Source: an uncultured Marinifilum sp. (GTDB lineage: Bacteria; Bacteroidota; Bacteroidia; Bacteroidales; Marinifilaceae). Taken from it: a stretch of DNA of 64,000 nucleotides. How positions within the stretch are numbered: the stretch's first letter is position 1; each line of letters begins with the position of its first letter. This document shows positions 211 through 34,161 of this stretch, one piece after another. The DNA lies in contig NZ_OY781918.1 in NCBI RefSeq assembly GCF_963677195.1, forward strand, positions 608,923 to 672,922, in the 5' to 3' direction. The position numbers were made by a program, and so were the translations under genes. The notes below the pieces were generated by a model. That model made no database searches, had not been told where the DNA came from, and saw nothing but the letters and a program-made list of their open reading frames with translations.

Positions 211-292
211 TATTATACCGATTATTAAATGAATACAGCCTTGAGTTCATTTCATTCCTTTAGGCTTATCATTTATATATCGGCATACTATC
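211..292 (+). repeat. Structured intergenic repeat, copy 1 (thiL leader)
   Basis: The arms are 218-232 (CCGATTATTAAATGA) and 269-283 (TCATTTATATATCGG). They pair as a 5-bp outer helix CCGAT/ATCGG, a 3x3 internal loop and a 7-bp inner helix TAAATGA/TCATTTA. An apical helix AGCCT/AGGCT is also possible. The 3' flank reads CGGCATACTAT. The same architecture recurs at 8003-8084 and 12433-12515. No TPP riboswitch signature is visible, although the next gene is thiL. Confidence 0.6.
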
Positions 293-319
293 AGAATAAT
301 TTTACCTTAAGGCAATATT

Positions 320-1366
320 ATGCAGGAAAATAAAGCACAGGGAACCGATATTTCATCGATGGGAGAATTCGGTTTAATAAAACATCTTACTAAAAATATC
401 AAATTAAAACATGCAAGCTCCAATGTTGGGATTGGCGACGATGCTGCGGTGCTTGATTACAGCAACAAAAAAACAGTTGTAACTACCGATTTATTGGTAG
501 AAGGAATCCATTTCGATTTAATGTATACCCCTCTAAAACATTTGGGTTACAAGAGCATTGCAGTAAATGTTTCTGATGTTTATGCCATGAATGCTTGTCC
601 AAAACAGGTAACTGTATCTATTGCAATCTCGAAACGATTTACTGTTGAAGCTCTGGATGAAATTTATGATGGCATTCGTTTGGCCTGCGAAAATTACAAT
701 GTCGATTTGGTGGGTGGAGATACTACATCATCTTTAACTGGTTTATGTATTTCTGTAACTGCCATTGGCGAAGCTGAAGAGAGTGAGTTGGCTTACCGAA
801 GTGGTGCAAAAGTTAACGACTTAATCTGCGTAAGCGGAAACTTAGGTGCGGCTTACGCCGGATTACAATTACTAGAGCGCGAAAAACGTGTTTTCGATAG
901 CAACCCAAACATGCAGCCGGATTTATCGGGTCACGATTACATTTTAGAGCGTCAATTAAAACCAGAAGCCAGAAAAGATATCTACGAAAGATTACAGGAA
1001 GCTAAAATTATTCCTTCTTCTATGATTGATATCTCTGATGGATTATCATCGGAATTGATGCATATCTGTGAAAAATCGAAAGTAGGTTGTCAGGTTTATG
1101 AGGAAAAAATTCCTGTCGACTACGAAACCCATAAAATGGCCGAAGAGCTGAACATGAACTACAGCACTTTCTCACTTAATGGTGGAGAAGATTATGAGCT
1201 ATTATTTACAGTTCCATTGGATAAATTCGATGAAATTGAAAAAATGGAAGACGTAAAAGTAATTGGACACATTACCGAAGAATCGAAAGGTCTTTATTTG
1301 GTTACCCGCGATAATGTGGAAATTGAATTACAGGCTCAGGGATGGAATCCGCTGAAGGAGGAGTAA
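320..1366 (+). CDS. thiL: Thiamine-monophosphate kinase
   Basis: This 348-residue protein is ThiL, which phosphorylates thiamine monophosphate to thiamine diphosphate in the cytoplasm. It shows the AIR-synthase-like fold signatures in order: GIGDDAAVL (residues 37-45), the nucleotide and metal segment TTDLLVEGIHFD (55-66), AVNVSD (81-86), GGDT (132-135), a late DISDGL motif and NGGEDYELLF near residue 290. The length is normal for the family. The ATG at 320 lies after a structured leader. The gene stands alone and ends at a strong hairpin terminator. No other thiamine gene is nearby. Confidence 0.93.
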   Translation: MQENKAQGTDISSMGEFGLIKHLTKNIKLKHASSNVGIGDDAAVLDYSNKKTVVTTDLLVEGIHFDLMYTPLKHLGYKSIAVNVSDVYAMNACPKQVTVSIAISKRFTVEALDEIYDGIRLACENYNVDLVGGDTTSSLTGLCISVTAIGEAEESELAYRSGAKVNDLICVSGNLGAAYAGLQLLEREKRVFDSNPNMQPDLSGHDYILERQLKPEARKDIYERLQEAKIIPSSMIDISDGLSSELMHICEKSKVGCQVYEEKIPVDYETHKMAEELNMNYSTFSLNGGEDYELLFTVPLDKFDEIEKMEDVKVIGHITEESKGLYLVTRDNVEIELQAQGWNPLKEE

Positions 1367-1381
1367 TCAACAAACAAACGA

Positions 1382-1423
1382 AAAATAAGAAAACCCGGGG
1401 AATTCCTCGGGTTTTCTTATTTT
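1382..1423. terminator. Bidirectional hairpin terminator after thiL
   Basis: AAAATAAGAAAACCCGGGG pairs with CCTCGGGTTTTCTTATTTT with one mismatch and a loop of about four bases. The A-rich and T-rich flanks make it usable on both strands. Confidence 0.85.
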
Positions 1424-1483
1424 ATAAGGCCTGCAATTTAAGTTGCTCTTTCAGGGCGTATGCTTCTATTCGTTATCAATTAA

Positions 1484-1502
1484 CCCAATGCGTTGCATTG
1501 GG
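1484..1502. repeat. Short perfect hairpin left of the REP-type transposase
   Basis: CCCAATGC-GTT-GCATTGGG is a perfect 8-bp stem with a 3-base loop. It has no T-tract, so it is not a good terminator. It lies just outside the left transposase-associated repeat and may belong to the same element. Confidence 0.4.
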
Positions 1503-1531
1503 CTGAATTAGGCTGCCTTTATTAACCAAGT

Positions 1532-1653
1532 ATTAAATTCTTATAAAGAATGTTTTCTTTCAATTGAAATTCTGTCACGAAGTGATTAAATTTGAGTAAC
1601 CACCTATGAAATAGGTGGTTAATCCCAAAAAACTTTACAATTCCCTGAAGGGG
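1532..1653 (+). repeat. Left copy of the transposase-flanking repeat
   Basis: This ~120-bp stretch is similar to 2198-2310 in direct orientation. Shared blocks include attaaattctt, ttcaattgaaattctgt, ataggtgg, aatcccaaaa and actttacaatt. It contains a perfect hairpin, TAACCACCTAT at 1597-1607 pairing with ATAGGTGGTTA at 1611-1621, and a second small stem TCCC/GGGG near 1643-1653. Hairpins on both sides of a Y1 transposase are typical of REP/BIME or IS200-like ends. Confidence 0.65.
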
Positions 1654-1668
1654 ATAAACAGAGAACTT

Positions 1669-2118
1669 ATGAGTAGCTACAAGCAAATCTATTACCACAT
1701 TATTTTCAGAACTAAAAGAAGTGAAAAGACCATCCCAACAGAACATTCGAAAAAACTATTCGCCTACCTACTCGGAATTATCAAGAATAAACAATGTCAT
1801 CTATATCGAATAAATGGAATGGAAGAACACATACATTTATTAAGCGATCTTCATCCTAGTATAGCTCTTGCTGATTTTTTAAGAGATTTAAAAACATCAT
1901 CTTCAATTTGGTTAAAACAACAACCCGAATTTAAAAATTTTAAAGGATGGGCTGATGGATATGCTGCTCTCACAAAATCATTTCATGAAAAAGAACAAAT
2001 CATTAACTATATCAAAAATCAACAAAACCACCACAAAAAAGAGTCTTTTACTGAAGAATTTCGCAGATTATTAATAGAAGATGGTATAGAAATTAATGAA
2101 AAATATTTCTTAAAATAA
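1669..2118 (+). CDS. REP-associated Y1 (HUH) transposase, IS200/TnpA-REP type
   Basis: The 149-residue protein begins MSSYKQIYYHIIFRTK, the typical start of the Bacteroidota Y1_Tnp family. It carries the HUH motif as HIHLL and a downstream tyrosine helix INYIKNQQNHHKK, the expected layout for single-strand DNA nicking by a one-tyrosine transposase. I chose the ATG at 1669 because a longer frame from GTG at 1615 would translate the hairpin of the flanking repeat. The gene is not in an operon and lies between two related ~110-bp repeats, so it may act on them as a RAYT does on REP sequences. The motifs look intact. Confidence 0.85.
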   Translation: MSSYKQIYYHIIFRTKRSEKTIPTEHSKKLFAYLLGIIKNKQCHLYRINGMEEHIHLLSDLHPSIALADFLRDLKTSSSIWLKQQPEFKNFKGWADGYAALTKSFHEKEQIINYIKNQQNHHKKESFTEEFRRLLIEDGIEINEKYFLK

Positions 2119-2127
2119 TTGAATTTA

Positions 2128-2140
2128 CCCCTTTCAGGGG
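2128..2140. repeat. Small hairpin immediately after the Y1 transposase
   Basis: CCCCT-TTC-AGGGG forms a 5-bp stem ten bases after the stop codon. It is followed by the palindrome ACCACGTGGT at 2163-2172. Both probably belong to the right end of the transposase-associated repeat. Confidence 0.35.
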
Positions 2141-2197
2141 AAATCTTGTACATTGCATACATACCACGTGGTTATATACCTTTTACCTCTCCGAGGC

Positions 2198-2310
2198 ATT
2201 AAATTCTTAAAATAATTTCCTTCAATTGAAATTCTGTACAAAGTGAATAAATCTAAATAACCCCCATTAAATAGGTGGATAATCCCAAAACACTTTACAA
2301 TTTCCTGAAA
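2198..2310 (+). repeat. Right, diverged copy of the transposase-flanking repeat
   Basis: This is the direct-orientation relative of 1532-1653. The hairpin segment here (taacccccattaaataggtgga) is degenerate, so the stem is mostly lost, while the surrounding blocks are retained. Confidence 0.6.
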
Positions 2311-2323
2311 AGAAGCAAACAAA

Positions 2324-2357
2324 AAAAGTGAGACCCTCTCACGAAAATCTCACTTTT
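2324..2357 (-). terminator. Terminator of the lpx operon
   Basis: AAAAGTGAGA (2324-2333) pairs with TCTCACTTTT (2348-2357). On the minus strand the stem is followed by a T-run, placing it about 20 bases after the lpxA stop codon. Confidence 0.8.
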
Positions 2358-2378
2358 ATTTATGCTGTTTGCGATATA

Positions 2379-3161
2379 TCAATCTGGAAAATAACCTCTC
2401 ATGATACCACGCTTAGAATTCTTCACGAACAGAATAATTTCATCACGCTCGGGAGAAGCAGGCATTTCGGCCTCAATCGCTTCTAAAGCTTTAAAGTTAT
2501 TCATTCCTTTTTGGTACAGGTAACGATATACATCCTGAATTTCACGAATTTTTTCGTTTCCAAACTCACGACGACGTAATCCAATTGAGTTCACACCAAT
2601 GTATGAAACCGGTTCGCGACCAGCTTTCACATAAGGAGGAATATCTTTACGAACCAATGATCCACCTGATACCATAACATGAGAACCAATATGTACAAAC
2701 TGGTGAACAGCTACTAATCCACTTAAAATTGCGAAATCATCAATAATAACTTCACCTGCAATTTGCGATGCATTACCAACAATAATATTGTTTCCTAAAA
2801 TACAGTCGTGAGCGATATGAGAATAGGCCATCAGCAAACAATTGTTACCTACAATTGTTTTTCCTTTTGCTGCTGTACCTCTGTTAATGGTTACACACTC
2901 ACGAATGGTTGTATTGTCACCAATTTCGACAGTTGTTGTTTCACCACGAAACTTTAAATCTTGCGGAACTGCTCCAATTACAGCTCCAGGAAAAACAGTA
3001 CAGTTTTTACCAATTCGGGTTCCCTCTAAAATGGTTGCATTAGAACCAATTCGAGTTCCTTCTTCAATCACAACATTTTTATCAATCGTTACGAATGGCT
3101 CAATCACTACATTATCTGCAATTTTTGCCTCTGGATGCACGTATGCTAACGGTTGCTTCAT
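2379..3161 (-). CDS. lpxA: UDP-N-acetylglucosamine O-acyltransferase
   Basis: LpxA transfers a hydroxyacyl chain from ACP to the 3-OH of UDP-GlcNAc, the first step of lipid A synthesis. The 260 residues start with left-handed beta-helix hexapeptide repeats (NVVIEPFVTIDKNVVIEEGT and onward). The catalytic segment SHIAHDC has its second histidine at residue 118, equivalent to E. coli His125. The C-terminal helical domain ends in RGIMRGYFPD. It is the last gene of lpxD-lpxC/fabZ-lpxA, 66 bases after lpxC/fabZ, and is followed by a terminator. Confidence 0.95.
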   Translation of the reverse strand: MKQPLAYVHPEAKIADNVVIEPFVTIDKNVVIEEGTRIGSNATILEGTRIGKNCTVFPGAVIGAVPQDLKFRGETTTVEIGDNTTIRECVTINRGTAAKGKTIVGNNCLLMAYSHIAHDCILGNNIIVGNASQIAGEVIIDDFAILSGLVAVHQFVHIGSHVMVSGGSLVRKDIPPYVKAGREPVSYIGVNSIGLRRREFGNEKIREIQDVYRYLYQKGMNNFKALEAIEAEMPASPERDEIILFVKNSKRGIMRGYFPD

Positions 3162-3227
3162 TTTTATATGTATTACATTTTATGCAAATCCAAAATCCCC
3201 GGATTTAGCACAGTAGTAGTTTAAAAT

Positions 3228-4619
3228 TTATTTATTCTTTGCAATCTGAGCCATAAACTCACCTTCTGCCACAACAGTATCGCCCACAAAAGCTAAACCG
3301 CGCATATTAGCAACTCCCCTACGAATTGGAGATAAAAACTGCAATTTAAAAATAAGAGTATCTCCAGGAACAACTTTTCGTCTAAACTTAATGTTGTTTT
3401 GAGTCAGGAAGTAAGTTGAATAATTTTCAGGATCATCGACCTGATTTAAAACCAAAATACCACCACATTGAGCCATAGCTTCGACCATAAGCACACCTGG
3501 CATTACTGGTTCTCCCGGAAAGTGACCAACAAAGAAAGGCTCATTCATTGTTACATTCTTAACACCTACAATAGAGTCTTCCTTAATATCAATAATTTTG
3601 TCAACCAACAAAAAAGGCGGACGGTGAGGCAATAAACCCATTATTCCATTAATGTCTAAAACTGGCTCTTTATTTGGGTCGTAAGCCGGAACTGAATCTT
3701 TTCCCATTTCTTTTTTAATTCGTTTGATTAATAATTTTGCCATTTCGGTATTGGGTCCGTGACCAGGACAAGATGCAATCACCTTTCCTTTAATGAACTT
3801 ACCACACAGAGCAAGATCACCCATCACATCTAGTAATTTATGACGTGCACATTCATTCTCGAAATAAAGTTCGAGATTACTAAGAATCCCTTCTTTTACT
3901 TCCACATGCTGATGATCGAATAGGTCTGCAATTCGGTTAAGCTCTTTTTGGTCCATAATCTGGTCCATTATTACAATGGCATTATCCAAATCTCCACCTT
4001 TTACCAAATTGTTATTCAATAGAAATTCCAACTCACGTACAAAAACAAAAGTACGACACATCGAAATCTCATCTTTGTAATCTTTTAATGATGTTAATCG
4101 TGCATACTGATTTCTTAACACTTTCGAATCGAAAGAAATCATCGCATCTACACTATATTCATTATCAGGAAGAATTGTTAATTCCGAACCACGGGCTTCA
4201 TCTTTATAGGTAATTGGCTCTTTTACAATGTAATATTCACGATCTGCATCCTGCTCTACAATACCTGCATTCTGAATTCCATCTACATAAAACTTTGCAC
4301 TTCCATCTAAAATTGGAGGCTCAGAAGAATTCATCTCTATCATACAGTTATCCACTTCCATTCCATACAATGCCGAAAGGGCGTGTTCAACTGTTTGTAC
4401 TTTAAACTCTCCTTTTTCCAAAACAGTACCTCGCGAAGTATCTCCAACAAATTCGGCACTTGCCTTTAATGTTGGTTGTCCATCAAGATCTACTCGTTTA
4501 AACTGATATCCATGATTTTCAGGTGCAGGCACAAACTTAATAGACACCTCTAAACCTGTGTGAAGTCCTTTTCCTGTTAATGTAAATTCTTTTGCTAATG
4601 TTCTCTGCTTATCTGCCAT
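3228..4619 (-). CDS. lpxC/fabZ: Fused UDP-3-O-acyl-GlcNAc deacetylase / 3-hydroxyacyl-ACP dehydratase
   Basis: The 463-residue protein joins two enzymes. The N-terminal ~300 residues are LpxC, the zinc deacetylase that commits the cell to lipid A. It has TVEHALSAL (His79) and RHKLLDVMGD, the HxxxD zinc ligands. The C-terminal ~150 residues are FabZ, with the substrate segment LLPHRPPFLLVDKI, the catalytic His in GHFPGEPVMPGV and Glu in MVEAMAQ. This fusion is characteristic of Bacteroidota and links lipid A synthesis with supply of hydroxyacyl-ACP. It lies 50 bases after lpxD and 66 bases before lpxA, clearly one operon. Confidence 0.97.
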   Translation of the reverse strand: MADKQRTLAKEFTLTGKGLHTGLEVSIKFVPAPENHGYQFKRVDLDGQPTLKASAEFVGDTSRGTVLEKGEFKVQTVEHALSALYGMEVDNCMIEMNSSEPPILDGSAKFYVDGIQNAGIVEQDADREYYIVKEPITYKDEARGSELTILPDNEYSVDAMISFDSKVLRNQYARLTSLKDYKDEISMCRTFVFVRELEFLLNNNLVKGGDLDNAIVIMDQIMDQKELNRIADLFDHQHVEVKEGILSNLELYFENECARHKLLDVMGDLALCGKFIKGKVIASCPGHGPNTEMAKLLIKRIKKEMGKDSVPAYDPNKEPVLDINGIMGLLPHRPPFLLVDKIIDIKEDSIVGVKNVTMNEPFFVGHFPGEPVMPGVLMVEAMAQCGGILVLNQVDDPENYSTYFLTQNNIKFRRKVVPGDTLIFKLQFLSPIRRGVANMRGLAFVGDTVVAEGEFMAQIAKNK

Positions 4620-4669
4620 AAAACCGACAATAATGTTTTTGATATACTATTTCGGAAATAGAAATCCCC

Positions 4670-5710
4670 CTATTTCTCTTCTTGAATCTTCTTTACCTGT
4701 TTCTCTAAATCCATAAGCTGTTCTCTCATCTTTGGCAGATTTTTAAACAATACATATGATTTTTGATAAGGTCCAAATTCAAATGCTGGAGACCCCTGAA
4801 CAACAGCACCTTCTTTTTTAATATTTTTACCAATACCCGATTGAGCGGCTATCTTAACCTCATTGGCAACCGATAAATGTCCGGCAAAACCAACTTGTCC
4901 GCCAATCATACAATTTTTACCAATTTTAGTACTCCCGGCAAGACCTGTTTGCGATGCAATTACAGTATTTTCTTGTATTTCTACATTGTGAGCAACCTGA
5001 ATAAGATTATCCAGTTTTACGCCTTTACGAATAATTGTCGATCCCATAGTTGCACGGTCAACACAAGTGTTTGAACCAATCTCAACATAATCTTCAATTA
5101 TTACATTTCCTACCTGAGGCACTTTTTTATAATCATTAGCCGATGAAGGTGCAAAGCCAAATCCATCGCCACCAATTACTACTCCAGAATGAAAAATACA
5201 ATCCGATCCGATCTTACAATTATCATATATTTTCACTCCCGAATTCAAAATGGTATTATCACCAATAATCACATTATCGCCCACATAAGAATGCGGGTAA
5301 ATTTTTACGTTATTGCCCATTTTTACATTGCTTCCGATATAAGCAAAAGCACCAATATAAGGTTTTTCACCAATAGTAGCTGTTTTACTAACATACGACG
5401 GCTCTTCCACTCCAATTTTTTGTGGTTTACTCTGCTCATACATCTCAAGTAATTTTGCTAAAGACTGATAAGCATCATCAACACGAATTAAAGTAGCCGA
5501 AATTTCTTTCTCTGCTTTAAAATCTTTATTAACCAATACAATTGATGAATTGGTAGTGTAGATATAGTGTTCGTATTTCGGGTTTGCTAAAAAAGAAAGA
5601 GTTCCGGGTTTTCCTTCTTCAATTTTGGATACATTGTTTACTGCAACACTCCCGTCGCCATCAACATCTCCATTAAGGAACTCTGCAATATCTTGTGCCG
5701 TAAAGTTCAT
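4670..5710 (-). CDS. lpxD: UDP-3-O-acylglucosamine N-acyltransferase
   Basis: LpxD adds the second, N-linked hydroxyacyl chain in lipid A synthesis. The 346 residues contain an N-terminal uridine-binding domain, a long hexapeptide-repeat beta-helix (for example [20 protein letters not shown]), the glycine-rich segment GGDGFGFAP and the catalytic VAHNVEI histidine near residue 240. A C-terminal helix, [16 protein letters not shown], completes the trimer. It is the first gene of the operon and has a structured ~105-base leader upstream. Confidence 0.95.
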
Positions 5711-5724
5711 TTGTTCTGTTTTTT

Positions 5725-5801
5725 ATCAGATACATTTTATTTTTTCTAAACAGGAAATAGGCCTTTATTATTCTAAAGCCTAATCATCCAATATATCTGA
5801 T
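5725..5801 (-). ncRNA. Structured 5' leader of the lpxD operon
   Basis: On the minus strand, ATCAGATA (5794-5801) can pair with TATCTGAT (5725-5732), closing a ~77-base domain. Inside it an AGGCTTTA / TAAAGGCCT hairpin (5759-5781) has one bulged base. The domain lies between the -7 box at 5822-5829 and the lpxD start. This is a predicted mRNA structure, and no known riboswitch family is recognised. Confidence 0.35.
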
Positions 5802-5821
5802 TAATACGAAAAAAATTTCTG

Positions 5822-5829
5822 CAAATCTA
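5822..5829 (-). promoter_or_regulatory. Probable lpxD operon promoter -7 box (TAGATTTG)
   Basis: CAAATCTA on the plus strand is TAGATTTG on the minus strand, a match to TAnnTTTG. No clear -33 TTTG is at the expected spacing. The start point would be near 5815. Confidence 0.4.
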
Positions 5830-5936
5830 ACAATTATTTAACGCAGATAAAATTTTTTTCCAGATTAAGCCTAGCTGAAAAGAACTTAACACTTGATTAT
5901 CTGTAGAATAAGACAATCACACCTTTGTAATTCTTA

Positions 5937-7193
5937 CTAATATATTTTAGGATAACAGATATAGTATTTTTTCACTGTTTTTGACAATACATCTATATTC
6001 AACATATCCGAAGCTTCGGTAATATCACAACGAGTTTCATCCTTGTTTAATATGCTAATATGATCTTCATCGGAACTATAAGCATTATTACTAATATCAC
6101 CAGATATCACCAAAAAATCCAGCGCATGATCGGAACACCCAAAAAAGCTTCTTATTTCGCTTCGTACTTTCTGAACATAGTCGGCAGTAAATTCTGTTTT
6201 TTGTATTTCTATCTTAAACAAGCGTCTGTCGCGGATACACCTGCTCATGTATGACAATATTTTATCGCTGTGCTTCGACCACACTTTAATGCATACCATA
6301 ATATCATCATCGTCAAGATCTGCAAAAACTTCCAATGCACAAGGACCATTCTCATGCGGTTTTAAACTCTCAAACCTATCAATTCCAACTTTATTGTACA
6401 AAAAATATCGCAATGCTGGCGTTGTAAAAAGATCCTCTCCTCGTTCGGCCAAATATTTTGCCCTTTTTAGCACATAAACCATCATTTCTTCGGCCGCAAT
6501 TACTGTTTTATGCAAATAAACCTGCCAGTACATTAATCTGCGGGCTATTAAAAATTTCTCAATCGAATATATTCCTTTAGCTTCAACCACCAATTTATCC
6601 TTTCGAACATCGAGCATTTTTATAATTCTTGCCGAACCCACCACTCCTTCGGTAACTCCAGAAAAGAAACTATCTCGGCGCAAATAATCCAAACGATCCA
6701 TATCGAGCTGACTAGAAACCAATTGATTTAAAAATCGTTTATGATATTTATTCTTAAAAATTTGAATAGCCATATCGAGCTCTCCATTAAATTGTTTATT
6801 AAGATAATTCATAAATAGCTCCGAAATTTTCTCGTGAGTAATTCCCTCTACAATACTATATTCGAGGGCATGCGAGAAAGGACCATGTCCAATATCGTGC
6901 AGCAAAATAGCAGCACATACTGCTTCTTCCTCTTCATGACTAATCTCATTACCTTTCGATCGCAAAACTTCAATTGCCAAACCCATTAAATAAGTAGCTC
7001 CTAATGCATGCTGAAAACGGTTATGAAATGTGCCAGGAAAAACTAAATAAGTTAATCCCAGCTGTTTTATTCTTCTTAAACGCTGAAAAAAAGGATGCTC
7101 CACTAATTGACTCGAAATTCCATTAGGAATATGAATAAAACCATGAACAGGATCATTAACAATCTTCTTTTTTACTCTATTAATTTCAGACAT
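5937..7193 (-). CDS. HD-domain phosphohydrolase (dGTPase/SAMHD1-like)
   Basis: The 418-residue protein has the HD-family signature of deoxynucleotide triphosphohydrolase-like enzymes: HPFFQRLRRIKQLGLTYLVF, the metal-binding HNRFQHALG, LLHDIGHGPFSHALE near residue 100 and the final aspartate in QLDMDRLDYLRRDSFF. The likely reaction is metal-dependent hydrolysis of a nucleotide, but the substrate cannot be read from sequence. I start at ATG 7193 (MSEINRVKKK) rather than an upstream GTG two codons earlier. It is a single-gene unit with its own possible -7 box at 7219-7226. Confidence 0.88.
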   Translation of the reverse strand: MSEINRVKKKIVNDPVHGFIHIPNGISSQLVEHPFFQRLRRIKQLGLTYLVFPGTFHNRFQHALGATYLMGLAIEVLRSKGNEISHEEEEAVCAAILLHDIGHGPFSHALEYSIVEGITHEKISELFMNYLNKQFNGELDMAIQIFKNKYHKRFLNQLVSSQLDMDRLDYLRRDSFFSGVTEGVVGSARIIKMLDVRKDKLVVEAKGIYSIEKFLIARRLMYWQVYLHKTVIAAEEMMVYVLKRAKYLAERGEDLFTTPALRYFLYNKVGIDRFESLKPHENGPCALEVFADLDDDDIMVCIKVWSKHSDKILSYMSRCIRDRRLFKIEIQKTEFTADYVQKVRSEIRSFFGCSDHALDFLVISGDISNNAYSSDEDHISILNKDETRCDITEASDMLNIDVLSKTVKKYYICYPKIY

Positions 7194-7218
7194 ACACACT
7201 AAGGAATTGAGTTTAAAA

Positions 7219-7226
7219 CAAATGTA
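7219..7226 (-). promoter_or_regulatory. Possible -7 box for the HD-domain gene (TACATTTG)
   Basis: CAAATGTA on the plus strand reads TACATTTG on the minus strand, about 26 bases before the ATG. No -33 box is seen. Confidence 0.35.
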
Positions 7227-7437
7227 TAAAAAGCTGAATAAAATGCCTATGAAAGAAAAAAATCATCACTTATTGAAAAGCAGGATTTATATTAAGCCAA
7301 TTGATCCAAGCAGAGCTAAATATTTATCCAACTGAATATTAAACCAAAAATTATTAAAATTATATCTTAAAAAAATACGTTTTTAGATAAAAAAAAATTC
7401 TTTAGGAGTTAGAATCCAATAATTTAGAGGAATGCCA

Positions 7438-7469
7438 TTTGCTTTTTAAAACATTTATCTCTAATTTTG
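7438..7469 (+). promoter_or_regulatory. rimP-nusA-infB promoter (TTTG-N20-TAATTTTG)
   Basis: TTTG at 7438-7441 and TAATTTTG at 7462-7469 are 20 bases apart, a full match to the Bacteroidota promoter. Transcription would begin near 7476, so an ATG at 7439 that opens the longest frame lies inside the promoter and cannot be the start codon. Confidence 0.7.
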
Positions 7470-7498
7470 CATCGAAAAGTAAGAGTAACGTGTACTTT

Positions 7499-7517
7499 AG
7501 GGGGCAGAAAGTCCCCT
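7499..7517 (+). promoter_or_regulatory. Leader hairpin upstream of rimP
   Basis: AGGGG (7499-7503) pairs with CCCCT (7513-7517) around a 9-base loop. It lies in the ~65-base leader between the promoter and the rimP ATG and may affect translation of the first gene. Confidence 0.35.
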
Positions 7518-7540
7518 ATTTTATTGACATTAACCGATAT

Positions 7541-8005
7541 ATGATTGATAAAAAAAATGTACTTGAAATTGTTGAGAAAGAAATTGCCGAAACAGATCTA
7601 TTTATTGTAGATATAACTGTATCGACGAGTAATGCAATTTCAGTAATGATTGACAGTATGAATGGTGTACCAATTAGCACCTGTATTGAGTTAAGTCGAG
7701 CAATCGAAAAAAACTTTGATCGAGATATTGAAGATTTTGAACTTCAGGTTGCTTCGGCAGGAATCGGTCAGCCATTCCAGGTCATTCAACAATACCATAA
7801 AAACATTGGTAAAGATGTGGAGATTCTTAGTACCGAAGGATTAAAACAAACAGGAAAATTAATCACCGTAGGTGAAAACGAAATAACAGTTGAAGTTGAA
7901 GAGAAAGTAAAAGTTGAAGGAAAAAAGAAAAAACAAGTCATTCTAACCCCTTATACTTTCACTTTTGATCAAATTAAGACAACAAAAGATATCATTACTT
8001 TTTAA
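7541..8005 (+). CDS. rimP: Ribosome maturation factor RimP
   Basis: The 154-residue protein beginning MIDKKNVLEIVEKEIAE is RimP, needed for 30S subunit maturation. It has the N-terminal alpha-beta domain (FIVDITVSTSNAISVMIDS), the conserved VASAGIGQPF turn where other RimPs have SPGLDRP, and a C-terminal SH3-like barrel from about residue 85. I chose ATG 7541 because the longer frame starting at 7439 overlaps the promoter and leader hairpin. It is the first gene of rimP-nusA-infB, the order seen in most bacteria. Confidence 0.9.
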   Translation: MIDKKNVLEIVEKEIAETDLFIVDITVSTSNAISVMIDSMNGVPISTCIELSRAIEKNFDRDIEDFELQVASAGIGQPFQVIQQYHKNIGKDVEILSTEGLKQTGKLITVGENEITVEVEEKVKVEGKKKKQVILTPYTFTFDQIKTTKDIITF

Positions 8006-8084
8006 TAACGATTATTAATTTGAATGAGCTATTTTTGTACTACAATTGATATCTCTAACAAATTATATATCGGCATTATACCGA
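8003..8084 (+). repeat. Structured intergenic repeat, copy 2 (rimP-nusA spacer)
   Basis: The arms are 8009-8022 (CGATTATTAATTTG) and 8059-8072 (CAAATTATATATCG). The outer helix is CGAT/ATCG, then the same 3x3 internal loop, then TAATTTG/CAAATTA. The 3' flank CGGCATTATACCG matches copies 1 and 3. The inner helix has a different sequence from copy 1 but still pairs. Confidence 0.6.
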
Positions 8085-8133
8085 AACAAGTATATATACA
8101 TTAAATGGTATAACAAGTAAACAGCTGAATAAC

Positions 8134-9366
8134 ATGAATCTTATTGAGACTTTTTCAGAATTTAAAGAATTGAAAAACATCGATCGTGCTACCATGATGA
8201 GTGTTTTAGAAGATGTATTTAGAAATCTTCTATTAAAGAACTATGGTACCGATGAAAATTTTGATATTATTATAAACCCAGATAAAGGTGACTTGGAAAT
8301 TTGGAGAAACCGTGAGGTTGTTGCAGATGGAGATGTTGAAGATTCGAATCTTCAAATTTCACTTTCCGAAGCAAAAAAAATTGAAGAGGATTATGAATTA
8401 GGGGAAGAAGTAACCGATGAAGTTAAATTTTTAGATTTCGGAAGACGATCAATTTTAACTTTACGTCAAAATCTTTCAGCCCGAATTTTGGAATTAGAAA
8501 AAGATAATATCTTTAATAACTACAAAGATCGCATTGGTGAAATTATTACTGGTGAGGTTTATCAGATCTGGAAAAAAGAAATTTTAATTTTGGATGATGA
8601 AGGCAATGAATTGATTCTTCCAAAAACAGAACAAATACCATCAGACTATTTCCGTAAAGGAGAGTCGATAAGAGCTGTTGTTATTCGAGTAGAAGTGAAA
8701 AACAATAGTCCATTAATTATTATTTCGAGAACTTCTCCTGTATTCCTAGAGAGATTATTTGAACTAGAAGTTCCTGAAATTTTCGATGGCCTAATAACCA
8801 TTAAAAAAATCGTTCGTATTCCTGGTGAGAGAGCAAAAGTTGCTGTTGAATCGTACGATGAAAGAATTGATCCTGTTGGAGCTTGTGTAGGAATGAAAGG
8901 ATCGAGAATACATGGTATTGTTCGTGAATTAAAGAATGAGAACATTGATGTAATCAATTATACGACCAACAAGCAATTGTTTATTACAAGATCATTAAAT
9001 CCTGCAAAAGTTTCTTCTGTGAAAATATTAGAAGAAGAAGGACGCGCTGATGTATATTTGAATCCTGAAGAGGTTTCGTTAGCAATTGGTAAGGGTGGTT
9101 TAAATATTAAACTAGCTAGTCAGCTTACGGGATACGAAATTGATGTATATCGTGAAAAAGCAGCTGATGAAAGCGAAGAAGATGTTAATCTTTCGGAATT
9201 TGCCGATGAGATTGACAGTTGGATCATTGATGAATTGAAGAAGATTGGTTGTGATACTGCAAGAAGCGTATTGGAACTTTCGGCTGAGGAATTGGAAAAA
9301 AGAACAGATTTGGAAATTGAAACTATTAATGAAATTTTAAACGTTTTTAAATCCGAATTTGAATAA
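8134..9366 (+). CDS. nusA: Transcription termination/antitermination factor NusA
   Basis: NusA binds RNA polymerase and nascent RNA to control pausing, termination and antitermination. The 410 residues comprise the N-terminal RNAP-binding domain, an S1 domain at about 135-205 (IGEIITGEVYQIWKKE), a KH domain with GACVGMKGSRIHGIVREL, a second KH domain with SLAIGKGGLNIKLASQLTG, and a short acidic C-terminal helix-hairpin-helix segment. It is the second gene of rimP-nusA-infB. The 128-base gap before it holds copy 2 of the structured repeat. Confidence 0.96.
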   Translation: MNLIETFSEFKELKNIDRATMMSVLEDVFRNLLLKNYGTDENFDIIINPDKGDLEIWRNREVVADGDVEDSNLQISLSEAKKIEEDYELGEEVTDEVKFLDFGRRSILTLRQNLSARILELEKDNIFNNYKDRIGEIITGEVYQIWKKEILILDDEGNELILPKTEQIPSDYFRKGESIRAVVIRVEVKNNSPLIIISRTSPVFLERLFELEVPEIFDGLITIKKIVRIPGERAKVAVESYDERIDPVGACVGMKGSRIHGIVRELKNENIDVINYTTNKQLFITRSLNPAKVSSVKILEEEGRADVYLNPEEVSLAIGKGGLNIKLASQLTGYEIDVYREKAADESEEDVNLSEFADEIDSWIIDELKKIGCDTARSVLELSAEELEKRTDLEIETINEILNVFKSEFE

Positions 9367-9430
9367 TCCACTTTAGGGAATTCCTCATAAAATTATTGAA
9401 ACGGCACATTTTAACAGTTAACTTATAAAT

Positions 9431-12400
9431 ATGGCAAAAGTCAATAAAAATATAAGACTTAGTAAACTAGCAAGAGAATTCAATGTTGGAATATCTACAA
9501 TTGTTGATTTTCTGAACAAAAAAGGTATTGAGATTGACTCTAATCCAAATACTAAAGTTTCGGGAGATACATATACTATTCTAGCGAAAGAGTATAGTTC
9601 AGATTTAAATCTGAAAAAAGAATCGGAAAAGGTAAACTTGAAGAGTACCCGAGAAAAGAAAGAAACAATTTCCTTGAGTTCCGACTCCGAAGAAACTGCC
9701 AAAGAAGAAACTGTTGAAAAAACGCAGGAGAAAACTCCGGCTGAAAATCCTGTTAAAGTGGTTGGTAAAATCGATTTAGATGCATTAAAGCCAAAATCGA
9801 AACAAGCAAAACCGGAAATTGCCGAAGTAAAAAAAGAAAAGGTTGAAGAAATAAAGCCAAAGGTTGTTAAAGCTGAGAAAAAAGTAGAAAAACCTGCTAA
9901 AGAAGCTAAACCTAAAAAAGCAGAAAGACCTCAACCTGTAAAAGAAGAAGTTACTGAAAAACCATCAGAGCCGGCTGAGAAGCCCGCTAAGGATGACCAA
10001 ACCGTTAAAATGGAAAGCCCGAAGAAAGAGGAAAAAACTCATCCTTCTAAAAAAGATAGTAAGGAAGAACTTAAAGTAGTAGGAAAAATTGATCTGGATT
10101 CTTTAAATCAGAAAACTCGTCCTGCTAAAAAGACAAAAGCTGAAAAAGAAGTAGAGAGAAGAGAAAAGCAAAAAGCTTCGGCTCAACATCAATCTCAAAA
10201 ACAAGAAAATGCTCCTGCCGAAAAAACAGGTGCTAAAGAAGAGATTTTTAAATCTTCTACTCAAAAGCTATCTGGCCCAACTGTTGTTGGTAAAATTGAA
10301 CTTCCTGTAGAGAAAAAATCTAGTAACGGAAACAAAGATAAAGCCGGTAATCAGCAGCGTAAAAAACGCAAAAGAATAAAAAAAGACAGCGAAAAAGTTA
10401 ACGTTGCAAACCAACCAGGACAAGGTAAACAAGGTCAAAATCGCCAACAAGGCAATCAGCAAGGTAACCGTCAGAAGCCAGGTGGAGGTAAATTTAACAA
10501 ACTGAAGAAAAAACGGGTTGTTAAAAAAGAGGTTAGCGAAGAAGATGTACAAAAGCAAATTAAAGATACTCTTGCAAGATTAACTTCGAAAGGTGGTAAA
10601 TCGAAAGGATCGAAGCACCGTAGAGAGAAGCGTGAAATTGCAAGTGCAAAACAAGCTGAATTAGCAGAACAGCAAGCAGCAGAAAAGAATGTTTTGAAGT
10701 TAACAGAGTTTGTTACTGTTAACGAGCTTGCAACAATGATGGAGGTTCCTGTAACCAATATTATTGCAACATGTATGGGATTGGGTTTATTTGTATCAAT
10801 CAACCAACGATTAGATGCTGAAACCATTGCCATTGTAGCAGACGAATTTGATTACAAAGCTGAATTTGTAAGTGTTGAACTTCAGGAATCAATTGAAGAG
10901 GAAGTAGATGCTGAAGAAGATTTGATCGAACGTCCGCCAATTGTGACTGTTATGGGTCACGTTGACCACGGTAAAACATCACTTTTGGATTACATTCGTC
11001 ATGCAAATGTAATTGCCGGTGAGGCCGGAGGTATTACCCAGCACATTGGAGCTTACAATGTAGCTTTAGAAGATGGTAGAAAAATTACTTTCCTTGATAC
11101 TCCGGGTCACGAAGCCTTTACAGCGATGCGTGCTCGTGGTGCTCAGGTAACAGATATCGCAATTATTATTGTAGCAGCTGATGATAACGTGATGCCACAG
11201 ACCATTGAGGCAATTAATCACGCAAGTGCAGCAGGTGTACCAATTGTATTTGCTATTAACAAGATTGACAAACCAGGTGCTGATGTTGACCGCATTAAGA
11301 GTGAGTTGGCCAACATGAATTATATGACTGAAGATTGGGGCGGTAAGTACCAGTGTCAGGAAATATCAGCGAAGAATGGTGTTAATATAGAAGAATTATT
11401 AGAGAAAGTTTTATTGGAAGCAGAAATGCTTGAAGCTAAAGCTAATCCTAACAAACGAGCCATTGGTTCGGTAATTGAATCATCGCTTGATAAAGGTCGT
11501 GGTTACGTTACAACATTATTGGTACAAGCGGGAACGCTTAAAGTTGGTGATGTTTTACTTGCAGGTAGTTATACTGGTCACGTAAAAGCAATGTTTAACG
11601 AACGTGGAAATAAGATCGACGCTGTTGGTCCATCGGAACCAGCATTAATTCTTGGTTTGAATGGTGCTCCTCAGGCAGGTGACAACTTTAATGTAATGGA
11701 GAGTGAAAGAGAAGCTCGTAACATTGCTAATAAGCGTGAGCAGTTACAACGTGAACAAGGTCTTCGTACTCAGAAACACATTACTCTTGATGAGATTGGT
11801 CGTCGTATTGCAATTGGAAACTTCCAGGAATTAAATGTTATTGTGAAAGGTGATGTGGATGGTTCTATCGAAGCACTTTCTGACTCATTAATCAAGCTTT
11901 CTACTGAAGAAATTCAGGTGAATGTTATACACAAAGCTGTTGGTCAGATTTCTGAATCGGATGTTATGCTTGCAACAGCATCTAATGCGATTATTGTTGG
12001 TTTCCAAGTTAGACCTTCAATTGGAGCACGTAGACTTGCAGAGAAGGAAGAAATCGACATCCGACTTTACTCAATTATCTACGATGCTATCGAAGAATTG
12101 AAATCGGCAATGGAAGGTATGCTTTCTCCTGAAATTAAGGAAGAAATTGTGGCAACTGTTGAAGTTCTTGAAACATTCAAGATTTCGAAAGTGGGAACAA
12201 TTGCTGGTTGTATTGTTCGCGAAGGTAAAATTAAGCGTAGCTCTCAAATCCGCTTAATCCGCGATGGTATTGTAATCCACACTGGTACTTTAGGATCCTT
12301 GAAACGATTTAAAGACGATGCCAAAGAGGTTGTTAAAGGATATGAATGTGGTTTAAATATCGAGAAGTACAACGATATTAAAGTTGGCGATATGGTTGAA

Positions 12401-12436
12401 GCATTCGAAGAAACCGAAGTGAAAAAGAAATTGTAA
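9431..12436 (+). CDS. infB: Translation initiation factor IF-2
   Basis: IF-2 is the GTPase that brings initiator tRNA to the 30S subunit. The 1001 residues start with an IF2_N helix domain ([20 protein letters not shown]). A Lys/Glu-rich low-complexity linker of about 350 residues follows, then the G domain with [12 protein letters not shown] (G1), DTPGHEAFT (G3) and NKIDKPG (G4), then domains II, III and the fMet-tRNA-binding IV. The linker carries three copies of a short motif VVGKI(D/E)L near residues 110, 215 and 283. It is the last gene of the operon, followed directly by repeat copy 3 and a terminator. Confidence 0.97.
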
Positions 12437-12515
12437 TACCGATTAGTATTTGATTTGTTCAAAAACTACACAAGTGTGTTTTTGAATATCAAATATCTAT
12501 CGGCACTATAACCGT
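12433..12515 (+). repeat. Structured intergenic repeat, copy 3 (infB 3' end)
   Basis: The arms are 12439-12454 (CCGATTAGTATTTGAT) and 12488-12503 (ATCAAATATCTATCGG). They give outer CCGAT/ATCGG, a 3x3 internal loop and TATTTGAT/ATCAAATA. Above these lies a further helix TTCAAAAAC/GTTTTTGAA (12458-12466 with 12478-12486) and an apical ACAC/GTGT, so this copy is an almost continuous hairpin. The 3' flank CGGCACTATAACCG matches the other copies. It overlaps the infB stop codon by a few bases. Confidence 0.65.
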
Positions 12516-12540
12516 ATAGAATACAATTCTAATATATTTG

Positions 12541-33778: not shown

Positions 33779-34161
<383 letters not shown>

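Follow-up and report, generated by a model that had tools for sequence, protein, structure and literature searches.

The stretch of DNA analysed here (the window; 64,000 nt of contig NZ_OY781918.1 from an uncultured Marinifilum sp., to which all positions refer) carries three similar intergenic segments, one in the leader of thiL, one between rimP and nusA and one directly behind the stop codon of infB. An initial annotation had described them as a three-copy repeat with shared ends. In this study, we found that they are insertions of one non-coding element, 102, 105 and 80 bp long in this order, each running from TACC to GGTA and forming two hairpins (hairpin I and hairpin II). We consider it likely that this is a non-autonomous mobile DNA element, flanked by copied TAA or TTA triplets and mobilised in trans by an enzyme that would recognise the folded DNA.

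Hairpin structure, covariation and dispersal

The pattern of the shared ends, CGATTANTAN{25,50}TATCGGCA, was found three times in the window and not once in 100 shuffles, which bears out the repeat. A wider form of the pattern has six occurrences in the own genome, and a reversed control pattern has none. Compared with their own shuffles, copies 1, 2 and 3 fold with z values of -4.4, -3.9 and -6.2. The search of this genome and its relatives with a covariance model, suggested with the first description, was run with a model of hairpin I (R1) and detected further copies. R1 has 12 matches at E up to 0.01 in the own genome (11 with stricter filters); for seven of the 12, E is no higher than 1.1e-9. 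The element is dispersed over the order: R1 matches 23 of 56 genomes of the family, with a maximum of 80 matches in one genome, and in a sample of the order (own genome included) it has matches at E up to 1e-4 in 31 of 295 genomes, corresponding to 27 of 184 genera.

Hairpin I was aligned for 42 copies from seven genomes (own, G004, G007, G008, G011, G018 and G020), four pattern matches of relatives that fall in open frames (L007, L009, L017, L018) having been left out beforehand as chance. Its base is nearly invariant (CCGATTA and TATCGGCA), and the upper stem is paired but freely variable in sequence. In these copies, 90.9% of the cells are paired, compared with 32-38% in slid versions, and the covariation score of 0.350 (shuffled mean 0.097) is reached by none of 500 shuffles. 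For 105 further copies, which were aligned to the model and hence lean towards its pairs, the score is 0.530 versus 0.141 shuffled, with 92.1% of the cells paired and again none of 500 shuffles reaching the score. The compensatory changes of the inner helix that had been noticed between the copies are real, both in the window and in the 42-copy alignment. The symmetric 3x3 internal loop of the same description did not hold up, since the three pairs of that register are formed by 0, 0 and 9 of the 42 copies. In an offset register, A13-T73 is paired in 42/42 and one bulged base is left per side: T12 is invariant in 42/42, and a base stands opposite at column 71 in 42/42. Columns 14 and 72 covary (UA 30, GC 7, UG 2, CG 1, unpaired 2).

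The repeat also extends beyond the 3' limits first assigned to it and runs on through hairpin II, downstream of hairpin I, to 317, 8110 and 12516. The common form of hairpin II is TTATACC...GGTATAA, with sub-families that differ in the interior. In 87 copies of the TTATACC type, the closing stem is paired in 87.7% of the cells, compared with 83.4% in shuffles (maximum of 500 shuffles, 85.2%); 13 of the 67 varied positions listed are compensated, for example as TTATACG/CGTATAA and TTATATC/GATATAA. In some other members of the order, hairpin II is closed by ACCATTGTA/TACAATTGGT, which gives element ends TACCGATT and TACCAATT. The median length of 136 copies is 124 bp (range 90-207, right ends set automatically), and forms with internal deletions occur (L293, L261). 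An in-place compensatory change of the hairpin II stem was seen between L252 and L027, two apparently orthologous copies with similar neighbours in two genera (TTATTCG/CGAATAA versus TTATTTG/CAAATAA). Separately, a small CCCGAT-n-ATCGGG palindrome lies within the loop of hairpin II in L035 and L043 and of hairpin I in L291, L295, L297 and L299, as though another very small repeat had inserted into the element.

Empty sites and target duplication

The corresponding region of M. caeruleilacunae (L090) lacks all three window copies, and its empty sites fix the borders of the element in the window. Between rimP and nusA, TTTTTAA is followed directly by CAAG in M. caeruleilacunae, whereas the window has TTTTTAA-[105 bp]-TAA-CAAG. 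In front of thiL, GACATTATGCAGG stands against ATTA-[102 bp]-TTATGCAGG in the window, and behind infB, TAAGAAACAATTC against TAA-[80 bp]-TAG-AATACAATTC. Two further exact empty sites were found among relatives (L227/L184 and L184/L039). Of the 136 copies, which are the best-scoring matches and no random draw, 86 have TAA and 22 have TTA on the left. In a set of 102 independent insertions, TTA stands on the right in 8/16 cases with TTA on the left, but in 2/68 with TAA on the left (p = 1.1e-5). The right TTA thus tracks the left one, which identifies the triplets as a 3-bp duplication and not as a fixed element end. The features in the window are listed in Table 1.

Table 1. Copies of the element in the window, their parts and the adjoining genes.
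Feature	Position	Strand	Basis
Copy 1, left target duplication TTA, thiL leader	213..215	+	empty site in M. caeruleilacunae L090 GGCGACATTATGCAGG
Copy 1, 102 bp, TACCGATTAT...GGCAATA	216..317	+	R1 77.3 bits, E 5.7e-15; borders from empty site
Copy 1, hairpin I, CCGAT...ATCGG, two offset bulges	218..283	+	folding, alignment
Copy 1, hairpin II, closing stem CATACTATC/AATATTATG, takes in thiL start codon 320-322	284..322	+	orthologue alignment
Copy 1, right target duplication TTA, ending in the A of the thiL ATG	318..320	+	empty-site comparison
thiL (thiamine-monophosphate kinase; name from the initial annotation), downstream of copy 1	320..1366	+	348-aa open reading frame
rimP open reading frame (name from the initial annotation); stop TAA 8003-8005 doubles as left target duplication of copy 2	7439..8005	+	list of open reading frames, empty site
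Copy 2, 105 bp, TAACGATTAT...AAATGGTA	8006..8110	+	R1 69 bits, E 5.7e-13; empty site L090, TTTTTAA followed by CAAGTAAATAGC
Copy 2, hairpin I	8008..8073	+	folding, alignment
Copy 2, hairpin II, closed by TTATACC/GGTATAA (last 3 bases are the right TAA duplication)	8076..8113	+	fold, sequence
Copy 2, right target duplication TAA	8111..8113	+	empty-site comparison
nusA, downstream of copy 2	8134..9366	+	list of open reading frames
infB stop codon TAA, left target triplet of copy 3	12434..12436	+	list of open reading frames, empty-site comparison
Copy 3, 80 bp, shrunken hairpin II CTATA-ACCG-TATAG	12437..12516	+	R1 72.6 bits, E 7.8e-14; aligned to empty site L090
Copy 3, hairpin I	12439..12503	+	folding, alignment
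Copy 3, right target triplet TAG, one change from TAA	12517..12519	+	empty-site comparison

The TTG start listed for rimP is possibly too early, and the nusA product is 94% identical to NusA of M. caeruleilacunae. Elsewhere in the window, three tRNA genes of the same score lie in tandem with a spacing of about 155 bases (33779-34161, minus strand).

Some arrangements of copies in other genomes were observed besides. L039, the empty-site partner of L227, carries a solo hairpin II (TAATACC...GGCATAA) at the orthologous site of the relative's full element, which suggests recombination between the left and the middle TACC, or a smaller mobile form. At L201:5009-5195, two copies are nested in tandem so that the terminal TAA of the first is the starting TAA of the next, and at L038:2011-2257 a copy with the other kind of hairpin II lies closely behind a first copy. 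Six draft contigs of G131 (C66, C74, C160, C247, C265 and C268) break off precisely at the 3' foot of hairpin I, which points to recent, nearly identical copies in this genome.

Insertion between genes and at stop codons

With a threshold of at least 80 codons for open reading frames (ORFs), one of the 136 copies is spanned by a frame, of 85 codons, two overlap the end of the upstream ORF by 10 bases and the rest lie between ORFs. The element prefers TAA and, behind genes, the stop codon itself: this was used in 16 of the 33 independent TAA insertions behind a co-directional gene ending in TAA, where 8.4 (standard deviation 2.0) are expected if each TAA of the intergenic stretch is equally likely. 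In the mirror case, the count is 2/10. All copies had been thought to lie in sense orientation, which is correct for the three in the window but not in general. Among the 102 independent insertions, the upstream gene is co-directional in 48 and opposed in 54, and both neighbours point with the element in 32, both against it in 35 and in mixed directions in 34. A search of 80 nusA regions of other species (51 + 29) with R1 yielded nothing below E 1.

The copy in the thiL leader

Relatives of thiL are present in 47 of 52 genomes of the family. Among the 25 rows compared, nine have the element in the thiL leader (own, G063, G018, G004, G062, G008, G020, G042 and G059; in G063 as an R1 match in L320); it is missing from the remaining 16, among them M. 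caeruleilacunae and two Ancylomarina. The eight of these copies that were compared (all but the one in G063) are each other's nearest relatives among the 136 copies. In the four genomes of one genus, columns 8, 81 and 116 have switched jointly from T/A/T to C/G/C, and in G059 columns 84 and 113 have gone from A-T to G-C. Counter to such coordinated changes, G042 breaks the pairs 8-81 and 81-116, and the pairs 82-115 and 86-111 are unpaired in 8/9 and 5/9 copies. The stem that contains the ATG is paired in 81.5% of the cells, a value reached by none of 500 column shuffles. Its covariation score of 0.148 lies narrowly above those of slid versions (0.145 and 0.136), and it has fewer pair types than shuffles (2 versus 2.9), with few evolutionary events behind it. 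In minimum-energy folds, the start-codon stem was seen for L013 and L014 but not for the own copy, and therefore we treat control of the start codon as hypothetical. On the ThiL tree, the label for the leader copy changes 7 times, compared with 6.9 in shuffles, and no single gain is recovered; the label missed G063 and counted eight copies. For the history of this copy, we assume either one old insertion followed by several losses, or transfer.

Search for a mobiliser and alternative explanations

No gene lies within any copy of the element that was examined. In three element-rich genomes, 133 left-end matches were listed, and 40 regions holding 44 of them were examined. A right-end-like site follows within 200 bp in 29 of these 44, nine lie inside an ORF and six had no assignment. 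At one of the six, the contig stops; the next ORFs at the other five encode a glycosyl hydrolase, a radical-SAM protein, a pectinesterase, an FtsX-type permease and a product without a domain.

The alternative that survives best, though we regard it as unlikely, is an ordinary miniature inverted-repeat transposable element (MITE) of an insertion sequence (IS) with a DDE transposase. Its hairpins would be by-products, and the covariation would stem not from selection but from quasi-palindrome correction, in which replication copies one arm onto the other. A 3-bp TWA duplication, short terminal repeats, AT-richness and an intergenic, non-coding nature are all usual for MITEs, and palindrome correction would yield paired changes without wobble pairs. 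Such correction should, however, erase bulges, yet T12 and the base opposite are kept in every aligned copy. Moreover, no larger copy carrying a transposase was recognised. In the searches for a parent, which were made in draft genomes from which IS copies may be lost, DDE_Tnp_1 (PF01609) was present in 5/6 genomes and had no match in G018, a genome with 62 R1 matches; the IS5-type family PF13586 was found in 0/6; and rve had no match in G018, G062, G131 and G103 of the eight genomes searched. IS5-type, DDE_Tnp_1 and rve transposases were thus rejected as partners, since they are missing from element-bearing genomes searched.

Less probable still is a conserved cis-acting RNA, in which the hairpins would be selected in the transcript, for instance for 3' end protection or translation control, and the copies would have spread by helping the host. 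The very strong covariation in both sets of copies speaks for it, as do the sense orientation of the three window copies and the occurrence of the thiL-leader copy, with its coordinated changes, in several genera. Under selection in a transcript, G·U pairs are expected to outnumber A·C mismatches. In 147 copies, however, we counted 50 G·T cells and 86 A·C cells, and 45 and 65 after merging into 59 clusters. In 19 tRNAs taken as a control, G·T was counted 15 times and A·C not at all, a result that is biased by the scoring of ARAGORN itself. Mismatches on the element strand involve C in 168 and G in 80 cells, an excess that would fit folding of the opposite strand; many of the mismatches may reflect decay after insertion. 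Also against an RNA are the even orientation towards neighbouring genes, the absence of every window copy from M. caeruleilacunae and the lack of an Rfam family at gathering score. The last result agrees with the earlier statement that no described family has this consensus; at E up to 5, only matches far below gathering were obtained, the best of them near copy 3 (E 0.32). General selection in the transcript is therefore unsupported, given no orientation bias, no G·T excess and exact empty sites. Of the initial proposal of a selected RNA or an element like the repetitive extragenic palindromic (REP) sequences, the second part stands in kind, as a dispersed mobile palindrome with real covariation; for the same three reasons, a selected RNA is not supported as a description of the whole family. 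An exception may be the thiL-leader copy, which is common to several genera and shows coordinated changes.

Similarly improbable is a REP-like element moved by the Y1 transposase of the REP-associated tyrosine transposase (RAYT) type encoded at 1615-2118 (Pfam Y1_Tnp, 2.9e-23). This gene lies 1.3 kb from copy 1, Y1 genes occur in all three genomes first tested, and in the order sample Y1 was found in 24/31 element-bearing genomes versus 155/264 others (p = 0.05). But none of 13 Y1 loci in G000, G004 and G018 (exact motifs) is flanked by the element, the sole nearby copy being copy 1; in seven genomes with the element, G103 included (97% complete, 6 element matches), no Y1 match was obtained at E 1e-8; and the consensus lacks a GTAG motif. 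We know of no 3-bp duplication as a REP feature. The gene has its own, different repeats, two imperfect direct copies of which flank it (1536-2330); the left one carries a hairpin (CCACCTATGAAATAGGTGG), and these repeats are unrelated to the element. Because of these flanking repeats, the Y1 loci without the element and the element-bearing genomes without Y1, the adjacent RAYT was rejected as mobiliser.

Spread on plasmids or phages was also discarded, as copy 1 had no match in plasmids and copy 2 none in phages (one copy searched in each), and the single pattern match in viral_contigs (L317) was no R1 match.

Discussion

The reading to which we commit is a mobile DNA element on whose folded form selection would act during movement. 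Several observations weigh against it. No transposase domain is encoded by the next ORFs at the five unassigned left ends, and no mobilising gene was found among Y1, DDE_Tnp_1, PF13586 and rve, the only families sampled; recognition of the folded DNA is for this reason something that we infer. The strand asymmetry of the mismatches fades when related copies are merged (G·T 38 and A·C 42 at 12 clusters; p = 0.09 for G- versus C-containing). Two filled and empty sites are not clean: in L184/L227, the empty site has TAG where the filled site has TAA, and in L040/L004 the alignment has extra bases at the junction. Left and right triplets agree as TAA/TAA in 73 and as TTA/TTA in 10 of the 136 copies, but the right ends were picked by likeness to the consensus, which favours TWA. 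Furthermore, 8/22 copies with left TTA have right TAA, so that decay or a built-in TAA end has to be allowed for. Finally, the terminal repeat is TACC/GGTA only, with the longer form (TACCGATT/TACCAATT) in some members of the order.

If the mobile DNA element is correctly understood, an enzyme encoded elsewhere in the genome would move it, presumably with a staggered 3-bp cut at TWA. Hairpin I would be recognised by its invariant base (CCGATTA, TATCGGCA and the two offset bulged bases), and the upper stem would need only to pair. A stop codon would be a harmless target, since the gene keeps its end in the left TAA copy, and copies would consequently build up between the genes of an operon. After landing, most copies would drift. 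The one in front of thiL was probably kept as a leader structure, the second stem of which can cover the start codon.

The 3-bp TWA duplication is shared with transposons of the IS5 / PIF-Harbinger type, which duplicate TWA or TNA triplets, although IS5-type PF13586 is missing from all six element-rich genomes. BrickBuilt and MITECca01 are MITEs from the same phylum as the hosts of the element. BrickBuilt of Porphyromonas gingivalis is likewise intergenic but has variable flanking duplications and an internal minisatellite (PMC4596501), and the terminal repeats of BrickBuilt and of MITECca01 of Cardinium are tied to IS5-like and IS982 elements, respectively, with sizes that differ from the element (PMC4596501; PMC9769881). 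Bacterial MITEs in general (ERIC/RU-1, Correia/NEMIS, RUP and YPAL, the last with known filled and empty sites) are described as about 100-200 bp long, non-coding, as a rule AT-rich, and intergenic, with stem-loops and target duplications, all in common with the element (PMC2229807; PMC10969869). Unlike MITEs as portrayed there, the element has two arms instead of one stem joining the ends, a TWA duplication and a very short terminal repeat, together with strong covariation of the arms, a stop-codon preference, an order-wide presence and no parent IS found. CIR elements of Caulobacter and Brucella also have two long stem-loop arms and a linker, lie outside genes and are partly MITE-like; they are set apart by a GANTC motif, no terminal repeat and no known duplication, where the element has a TWA duplication and TACC/GGTA ends (PMC2229807). 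The element works like a MITE in size, place and duplication, without a proven parent IS and with an unusual structure.

The bulged, folded base may be compared with REPs and with integron attC sites. The latter are imperfect palindromes with extrahelical bases and a variable upper stem. Their recognition as a DNA hairpin in folded single-stranded form, as described (PMC6393395), makes them a candidate likeness; the element is a single insertion with a triplet duplication, and no cassette array was seen. By eye, no attC boxes were recognised in it, and no search was aimed at an integron integrase. REPs with TnpA-REP (RAYT) are dispersed palindromes too, and they include one group with a conserved stem bulge and are recognised as folded single-stranded DNA (PMC8266576). 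They are given there as 20-40 bp long and mostly tagged GTAG or CGTC, unlike the element with at least 80 bp, a 3-bp duplication and no such tag (PMC8266576). A literature search of limited extent found no published description of the element.

It is tempting to speculate that the element belongs to a new class of gene-less transposon, which would move as a folded single strand, be known by its bulged hairpin base and not by terminal repeats, and be delivered into TAA stops by a host recombinase outside the known IS families, one copy having become a start-codon-covering leader of thiL. This possibility is tentative; if true, a self-spreading hairpin tuned to harmless operon junctions would exist throughout the order. 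New RNA families are declared on covariation of this strength, but the copies show the behaviour of strand-neutral DNA insertions. Covariation on its own would have been misleading here, and checks of wobble pairs and of orientation are a simple means to distinguish mobile DNA that folds from RNA. The stop-codon bias illustrates how a parasite packs into operons without breaking genes, and the thiL leader provides a testable case of a mobile element turning regulatory. As no mobiliser was found among the families sampled, the element suggests that a large bacterial order harbours a transposase or recombinase yet to be discovered.

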